64,000 bases of DNA. It comes from Streptantibioticus cattleyicolor NRRL 8057 = DSM 46488. GTDB lineage: Bacteria; Actinomycetota; Actinomycetes; Streptomycetales; Streptomycetaceae. The DNA lies in the NCBI RefSeq assembly GCF_000240165.1, contig NC_017586.1, forward strand, positions 3,658,001 to 3,722,000, in the 5' to 3' direction. The notes below the pieces were generated by a model. It was not told the DNA's origin. It worked only from the letters and a program-made list of their open reading frames with translations, and did not search any database. Made by a program: the position numbers and the translations under genes. Positions 23,202-24,647 of this stretch are shown here, piece after piece (position 1 is the first letter of the stretch; the number at the start of each line of letters is the position of its first letter).

Positions 23202-23233
23202 AGGGGCCCCTGCGCATGACGCGCGGGGCCCCT
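23202..23233. terminator. Terminator between acyl-CoA ligase and cold-shock gene
   Basis: AGGGGCCCC-T-GCGC pairs with GCGC-GGGGCCCCT around an ATGAC loop, a 13-bp stem with one bulged T. It lies 49 bp after the ligase stop and 59 bp before the convergent cold-shock gene stop, so it may serve both. Confidence 0.7.
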
Positions 23234-23292: not shown

Positions 23293-23496
23293 TCAGACGG
23301 GGGTGACGTTCTCCGCCTGCGGGCCCTTCGGACCCTGGGTGACGTCGAAGTTCACCTGCTGGTTCTCCTCGAGGGAGCGGAAGCCGGCGGCGTTGATCGC
23401 GGAGTAGTGGACGAAGACGTCGGGGCCACCGCCGTCCTGGGCGATGAAGCCGAAGCCCTTTTCAGCGTTGAACCACTTCACGGTTCCGGTAGCCAT
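23293..23496 (-). CDS. Cold-shock domain protein (CspA family)
   Basis: A 67-residue single cold-shock domain that binds single-stranded RNA/DNA and acts as an RNA chaperone or antiterminator. RNP1 is KGFGFIAQ and RNP2 is DVFVHYSAI, both complete with the aromatic residues, and the [10 protein letters not shown] start is canonical. ATG at 23496 follows a strong AAGGAGGG site. The leader of at least 100 nt is unusually A/T-rich for this genome and holds two hairpins, which suggests post-transcriptional control. Confidence 0.95.
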
Positions 23497-23504
23497 AAAG
23501 CCCT

Positions 23505-23517
23505 CCTTGGGCCAAGG
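23505..23517 (-). promoter_or_regulatory. Small hairpin that would sequester the cold-shock ribosome site
   Basis: On the coding (minus) strand CCTTGG-C-CCAAGG forms a 6-bp dyad, and its 3' arm runs directly into the AAGGAGG Shine-Dalgarno sequence about 9 nt before the ATG. Melting or chaperone binding could expose the site. A 1-nt loop is too tight to form fully, so the inner pair would open. Confidence 0.4.
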
Positions 23518-23561
23518 GTCGCCCTGCTCCAGAACCTGCAAAGAAGTCTGAAAATTACAAA

Positions 23562-23590
23562 AGCCTGCGGCGTTACATGCTCCGCAGGCT
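23562..23590 (-). terminator. Terminator-like hairpin with U tract in the cold-shock leader (putative attenuator)
   Basis: On the minus strand AGCCTGCGG and CCGCAGGCT form a perfect 9-bp stem with an 11-nt loop, followed at once by TTTTGTAATTTT. This is a textbook intrinsic terminator, rare in such a GC-rich genome, and it lies 66 bp upstream of the cold-shock ATG inside the apparent leader. It may attenuate transcription unless it is melted, or it may end an antecedent transcript. Confidence 0.55.
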
Positions 23591-23747
23591 CTGTACTGCA
23601 AGGAAACCAAACTGCAACTTGCGATTGAGCGTAGCACGGGGAGGTGGGCAGCGGAAGGGATCTCAAGATCCGGTGTCGAGCCCCGTGCGAACGCCGCGCG
23701 GCGGCGCCCGGCGGCCCCGGGGAAAGATCCCCACGGGCCGGGTCTAG

Positions 23748-24647
<900 letters not shown>

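Follow-up and report, generated by a model that had tools for sequence, protein, structure and literature searches.

Cold-shock proteins (Csps) are abundant RNA chaperones, and their control in high-GC actinobacteria is little known. In Escherichia coli, CspA acts on its own mRNA, according to the available text of PMC9947658. In Corynebacterium glutamicum, cspA is listed as a thermometer of the RF01766 family at 60 bits in the accessible part of PMC3890552, and the same thermometer is named in an excerpt of PMC4046766. For Bacillus subtilis, the portions of PMC8307031 available to us report that a mutation in the cspC leader approximately doubled reporter output, and that CspB/CspD favour termination at man and lia, where their loss raised read-through; at pyr the effect is opposite, loss of CspB/CspD having lowered read-through. 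Csp action may thus have either sign, and reports that PMC8307031 cites for E. coli and for B. subtilis disagree on whether Csps promote or block termination.

In Streptomyces coelicolor, csp transcripts, SCO4505 included, fall on heat shock and their ribosome loading rises (PMC6009599, available text), and SCO4505 is placed in a group modelled under HrdB-RbpA (PMC6344877, available text). For S. clavuligerus, 150 premature units have been described, 96 of them novel, and the accessible text of PMC8269248 names no csp gene among them. Public Term-seq data exist for S. coelicolor, S. avermitilis, S. clavuligerus, S. griseus and S. lividans. Nor is a csp leader named in the available portions of PMC8079986, PMC8269248, PMC8780764, PMC12207403, PMC3765725, PMC11678152, PMC4895711 or PMC2965389. 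Our literature search, which covered titles and the beginnings of abstracts, found nothing describing a leader of the kind reported here, though a prior listing is possible.

We analysed a window, the whole stretch of 64,000 nucleotides, that holds a csp gene with an ATG at 23496-23494 (Table 1). Its product is the best of nine PF00313 matches in the genome, which consists of two contigs of 6.28 and 1.81 Mb, and the nearest NCBIfam model is the CspE antiterminator at 112.2 bits, under the cut-off of 120. The divergent neighbour at 23757-24647, on the plus strand, matches the PF02621 menaquinone-biosynthesis protein at 251 bits and has no NCBIfam match at E ≤ 0.001; we take it to be mqnA. Of 79 long loci from relatives, 71 contain a motif of this menaquinone gene, so the csp neighbourhood is stable. 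We presume that the window csp is the ortholog of S. coelicolor SCO4505, the adjoining menaquinone gene being the one support for this here. On the 3′ side of csp, at 23203-23232 of the minus strand, lies a stem, GGGGCCCC-GCGC...GCGC-A-GGGGCCCC, with no U-run; it is a candidate I-shaped 3′ terminator, unlike the U-tailed hairpin in the leader.

The leader begins behind an extended −10 element, which recurs by eye at the same place in relatives and several paralogs as GTGCTA[CG]nnT or a near form. In S. lividans, the TAnnnT of promoters lies mostly 5-7 nt before the start (PMC8079986, available text), and the spacer from the −10 element to A23620 is 7 nt. Together with the conserved 5′ element, this promoter motif places the likely transcription start at about 23620, upstream of the hairpin H1. 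In H1, AGCCTGCGG (23590-23582) pairs with CCGCAGGCT (23570-23562), which gives 11 pairs when two outer pairs (G-U, A-U) are included. A sequence-only reading of this locus had described a perfect 9-bp stem with a U tail in the csp leader, and both are read directly on the minus strand, with seven T within the 10 nt past the 9-bp stem. It had also called such a terminator-like site very unusual, and the window indeed contains no second one this strong. When stems of at least nine Watson-Crick pairs with loops of 3-12 nt and at least six T in the next 10 were counted on both strands, H1 was the sole site in the 64 kb, and 10 dinucleotide shuffles gave none. Relaxing the count to at least five T added two further places on the plus strand, 11136/11137 and 29777, with 0.1 per shuffle. 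A generic terminator scan of the window did not report the H1 site, and the scan's loop limit of 8 is the probable reason. The 156-nt leader region does not fold more stably than its shuffles (z = −0.84, 36 of 200 equally good), and the case for structure is thus comparative, not energetic.

Table 1. Features of the csp leader region, in window positions.
Feature	Positions	Strand	Description
Extended −10, TGC-TACGCT	23628..23636	-	Read directly; recurs in relatives by eye
5′ element, AAGTTGCAGTTTGGTTTCCTTGCAGTAC	23593..23620	-	At the predicted mRNA 5′ end
P1 5′ strand, GUUGC	23614..23618	-	From helix scan of alignment A2; candidate long-range helix
TTGCAG, second copy	23596..23601	-	Candidate antiterminator; first copy at 23617-23612
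Hairpin H1	23562..23590	-	Perfect 9-bp stem, 11-nt loop AGCATGTAACG
U-rich tail	23551..23561	-	TTTGTAATTTT, directly after H1
CTTTGCAGGTTCT	23531..23543	-	Can pair over 13 bp with 23592-23580, as an alternative to H1
P1 3′ strand, GCGAC	23518..23522	-	9 nt upstream of the Shine-Dalgarno
Small dyad, CCTTG/CAAGG	23505..23517	-	5 bp (23517-23513/23509-23505), overlaps the Shine-Dalgarno
Shine-Dalgarno, AAGGAGG	23502..23508	-	Read directly
csp gene	23293..23496	-	67 aa, PF00313 at 109 bits

Comparison within the family was made on alignment A1, which holds 60 of the 61 unique family segments, the window included; L027, which has an expanded loop, was omitted, and rows L024 and L170 were trimmed by hand. 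Across these 60 distinct leaders 99.7% of the H1 cells are paired, and both sides have changed in 3 of 11 pairs, amounting to 23 cells against 0.7 in shuffles. None of 500 shuffles reached the observed number of paired cells, of both-side changed cells, or the covariation score. The sequence-only reading would have been refuted by a stem not conserved in relatives, and here the H1 stem is kept with compensatory changes. The stem has at least 9 pairs in 145 of 146 distinct family leaders and 5 in the other. A covariance model, R1, matches all 104 same-family genomes of a separate search, the window's genome included, at E ≤ 8.4e-14, and matches weakly in 2 of 15 genomes from other families of the order. 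A named-contig scan gave at least 120 matches and, together with earlier loci, 180 matches listed. Of those listed, 162 have csp downstream and 2 are cut Streptomyces-type loci; the other 16 lack csp, lie in unrelated bacteria where these are named, and are read as chance.

Leaders of the same plan occur beyond the family. In other families, an extended −10 is followed by GGTTGCAG...GTTCC, a hairpin such as AACGCCCGC...GCGGGCGTT, and TTTTT. Alignment A3 collects 35 leaders across the class that were picked by eye for a visible element and hairpin. From one set of 30 loci, 28 with a recognisable csp start, 13 were taken; left out were a near-duplicate, L274, then L287, whose element was missed by the pattern, and 13 without a clear element. 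From another set of 40, 20 were taken; no element was visible in 9 (L231, L232, L234, L236-L238, L243, L244 and L251), and the rest were duplicates, variants or unchosen. In A3, 89.2% of stem cells are paired, with 50 both-side changes against 16.4 ± 4.7 in shuffles and a covariation of 0.462 against 0.212; cells paired, changed cells and covariation were each reached in 0 of 500 shuffles. Both-side changes fall in 6 of 9 pairs, a count equalled by 40 of the 500. Sliding the stem partner lowers pairing to 35-50%, and the tail has on average 6.3 U in 10. The stem sequences themselves vary widely (AGCCTGCGG, GTGCGCCTG, ACGCCCGCG, and CCCACACC in L261). Since stems diverge while the hairpin and U-run persist, a terminator fits better than a sequence-specific protein site.

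A model built from A3, R2, was run on 60 class genomes. All 37 of its matches at E ≤ 0.00131 lie upstream of csp, as judged from coordinates or by reading the loci, and they are spread over 27 of the 60 genomes, representing 15 of 33 families; 17 of them are members of A3 and 20 are not, some of the latter being close A3 relatives. The window leader itself matches R2 weakly (27.9 bits, E = 0.0047). Like the window, the weaker matches G357:C1 and G332:C45 precede csp; L327, L328 and L329 do not. The remaining 33 genomes have no R2 match at E ≤ 0.00131, though all 60 have csp, so the element is common and not universal; with selected leaders and element-less loci, 'class-wide' here means many, not all. 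A search of 149 phylum genomes, less sensitive for having fewer candidates in each, gave R2 matches at E ≤ 0.01 in nine; in the three of these that lie outside the class, no csp is found at the match.

Csp paralogs of the same genome show that the parts are separable. By eye, four of the nine csp genes have the plan or part of it. L004 and L006 share the element, hairpin and U tail with different stems, and L002, L003, L007 and L009 show no element (L008 was left out). L005, also a paralog of this genome, and L264 are read as having the 5′ element and a 3′ domain with the hairpin absent, which makes them natural hairpin-deletion variants, useful as controls. The window leader is read as keeping the hairpin with its 3′ part shortened.

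Three features together point to a transcription attenuator: stems are replaced while hairpin and U-run persist, the hairpin is promoter-proximal, and the parts are lost in a modular way. The attenuator-type hairpin that the sequence-only reading proposed is well supported by conservation and covariation in the family and class alignments. We consider it reasonably probable that the segment is the csp mRNA 5′ leader with a csp-specific transcription attenuator, and the leader is probably an RNA switch without a name as yet, shared across Streptomyces-like families and controlling the Csp level. RNA polymerase would start at about 23620, transcribe the near-invariant 5′ element and meet, some 60 nt into the transcript, an intrinsic-terminator-like hairpin with its U-rich tail. 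A fraction of transcripts would end there as an RNA of about 65-70 nt, and the remainder would read through into csp. On this model termination would occur at H1, be partial and be set at a regulated level; the most economical guess for the regulator is feedback by the Csp protein, with an uncertain sign. The sequence-only reading had thought autoregulation through Csp antitermination plausible; the preference for termination reported for B. subtilis Csps speaks against that step. In read-through RNA the 5′ end may pair with GCRAC by the ribosome-binding region, which would couple leader and translation.

Each of the two TTGCAG copies in the 5′ element can form a 6-bp helix, including two G-U pairs, with CTGCGG at 23587-23582 in the 5′ arm of H1, and in family leaders this could happen before the terminator is complete. 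This pairing is possible in 99-100% of A1 cells, but without variation, and it is absent from the class-wide alignment. The 13-bp alternative to H1, when forced, has −19.7 against −20.8 kcal/mol for the minimum free energy fold and forms after the hairpin is transcribed; it is not general, scoring above H1 in 11 of 121 distinct leaders. No alternative helix covaries with H1, and in A3 only H1 covaries. With no covarying alternative a switching antiterminator was set aside, though within the family the invariant TTGCAG/CTGCGG pairing may provide one.

The region beside the ribosome site offers another reading, in which an RNA thermometer or a translational switch operates at the Shine-Dalgarno and the hairpin is scaffolding; it may coexist with attenuation. 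CCTT faces the AAGG of the Shine-Dalgarno in 124 of 127 short-type family leaders, and in S. coelicolor the translation efficiency of six csp mRNAs, that of SCO4505 among them, rises on heat shock while the transcripts fall (PMC6009599, available text). The pairing shows no covariation in family leaders, and the dyad is missing from the 19 long-type leaders, which, like the paralogs, are read as having a different arrangement beside the Shine-Dalgarno. The S. coelicolor data bear on the window through the presumed orthology to SCO4505, which the menaquinone neighbour supports here. The sequence-only reading had spoken of a hidden ribosome site: its 5-bp dyad running into the Shine-Dalgarno is present, but 'hidden' overstates the case, since the Shine-Dalgarno is predicted to be unpaired at 0.63, 0.65, 0.66 and 0.66 at 10, 28, 37 and 42 °C (RNAfold, leader with about 30 nt of coding sequence). 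This accessibility is flat, and RNAfold predicts no temperature switch over 10-42 °C. A thermometer or translational switch is doubtful on this evidence.

The same 3′ part contributes a candidate long-range helix, P1, by which the 5′ end would come to lie close to the Shine-Dalgarno, a point in favour of translational control. In the helix scan 98% of GUUGC/GCGAC cells are paired, and 2 show changes on both sides. Among the 127 short-type leaders the 3′ site reads GCAAC in 105 and GCGAC in 21, and both can pair with GUUGC. In permutation tests of own-leader matching on 34 leaders, 19, 1 and 5 of 2000 permutations reached the observed score, the third test using 33 non-redundant leaders and the p values ignoring relatedness. 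Two of 36 leaders were dropped (L293, L294), several elements were misplaced in the first run, and in the rerun the second GTTG repeat was chosen in several leaders and one start position was shifted by 12. On this weak evidence P1 is a likely link between the mRNA 5′ end and a site near the Shine-Dalgarno. As the helix forms after the terminator is passed, it can act on read-through RNA alone. A longer 3′ domain before the Shine-Dalgarno, shortened in the window, is present in 19 of 146 family leaders and in paralog-type leaders. Its hairpin covaries in 21 paralog-type leaders, with 15 both-side changes against 5.5 when the neighbouring helix is counted; that GGGG/CCCC helix shows no covariation, all changes lying in the hairpin.

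Attenuator, 5′ element and 3′ domain could be combined in a class-wide actinobacterial csp riboregulator with modular parts, in which the mRNA 5′ end acts in two successive steps, an idea we put forward tentatively as possible and on present evidence unlikely. While free, the 5′ end would set read-through, either by binding a factor that may be Csp or by pairing with the 5′ arm of the hairpin. Past read-through, it would tune translation by pairing with GCRRC next to the ribosome site. Some csp genes would then carry the attenuator with a reduced 3′ part, and others the element and 3′ domain only.

The 3′ arm of H1 ends in CTCT, which interrupts the adjacent U-run, in 56 of 121 distinct family leaders, and termination in those may be weak. 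Such broken runs, with the position of H1 near the predicted mRNA 5′ end and its conservation, would suit a 5′ mRNA stabiliser or processing site in place of a terminator, and a 5′ hairpin stabilising the gyrase mRNA of Mycobacterium smegmatis is a precedent, going by the title of that report. A stabiliser, however, needs no U tail. In the 10 bases that follow the arm's final non-T, 5-7 are T in 139 of 146 distinct family leaders, and the A3 mean is 6.3; two tail forms, TGTAGTTTTCAG and CGTCGTTTTCAG, predominate in the family. Usual Streptomyces terminator tails have 3-4 T (PMC12207403, available text), so the tail is U-rich for the genus, albeit with a run that is often broken. A stabilising or processing role in place of termination accordingly appears rather unlikely.

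The 5′ element is conserved beyond much of the hairpin, as counted in invariant columns. Its pattern, with the hairpin excluded, occurs in 288 of the 297 family genomes, from 15 of 17 genera, at about one per genome, and the reversed control is absent from the matches listed. Of the nine genomes without the pattern, two have the leader by R1; the remaining seven come from two genera, and the six of them that were read have csp leaders of a different type. The paralog form GTTGCAGTTGTGGTTCCC, allowing up to two mismatches, occurs at 24 places in eight genomes, 23 of them upstream of csp; the last, L360, has no csp nearby and resembles coding sequence by eye. The reversed control gave nine matches in the same eight genomes, so single two-mismatch matches may be chance. 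With 23 of 24 matches preceding csp, a general cold-shock regulon box is unsupported. That the element and hairpin form a trans-acting small RNA, with the conserved element as seed and termination freeing its 65-70 nt, is quite improbable given the tie to csp (23 of 24 pattern matches and 37 of 37 strong model matches), when a free small RNA might occur elsewhere, and given that P1 may explain part of the element's conservation.

Three further readings were rejected. In the window leader, which is open in this frame, an ORF from 23637 continues into csp; an in-frame stop lies between the 5′ element and the ATG in 87 of 146 distinct family leaders and 59 are open, so there is no conserved N-terminal extension. 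Resemblance of GCAGTACAGA to the E. coli 'cold box' does not extend to relatives, which have GCAGTACTTGA and similar instead. In the H1 loop (23581-23571), CAUGURA sets an AUG directly before UGA or UAA in 143 of 146 distinct family leaders, and in L027 the loop is enlarged by tandem CATGTRACC copies. As a functional AUG-stop (GGAGCAUGURA) it was discarded: none of the 35 A3 rows has the motif, the Shine-Dalgarno-like GGAG is 1 nt away, and we regard it as a curiosity.

No Rfam 15 family reached threshold in the window or in six csp loci. The cspA thermoregulator, RF01766, had no match at E ≤ 10 in window positions 23450-23760, and in five of six other csp loci its matches, of 21-31 bits against a cut-off of 78, span coding sequence. 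With nothing above threshold and the weak cspA matches covering coding sequence, an Rfam family was rejected as the explanation. RF01766 matches of 24-31 bits on the actinobacterial csp loci L029, L006, L025 and L037 also span the coding region, and older actinobacterial thermometer annotations may rest on such matches.

With its tie to csp in 15 of the 33 class families sampled, the leader element would be a new regulatory RNA family. The leader would be a natural system in which to ask whether termination is promoted or blocked by Csps, and it may serve as a tunable expression part. Among described systems, it resembles the E. coli cspA leader (RF01766) in being a structured 5′ csp leader and differs from that thermoregulator in having no RF01766 match; the published E. 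coli cspA thermosensor is not known to have an attenuator hairpin. With the cold-shock boxes in the 5′ UTRs of B. subtilis cspB and cspC it shares short conserved boxes in a csp leader, although the available text of PMC8307031 does not describe those boxes as a terminator hairpin. Like the intrinsic terminators and premature units of Streptomyces, it has a stable GC hairpin and a U-rich tail located after the promoter and ahead of the start codon.
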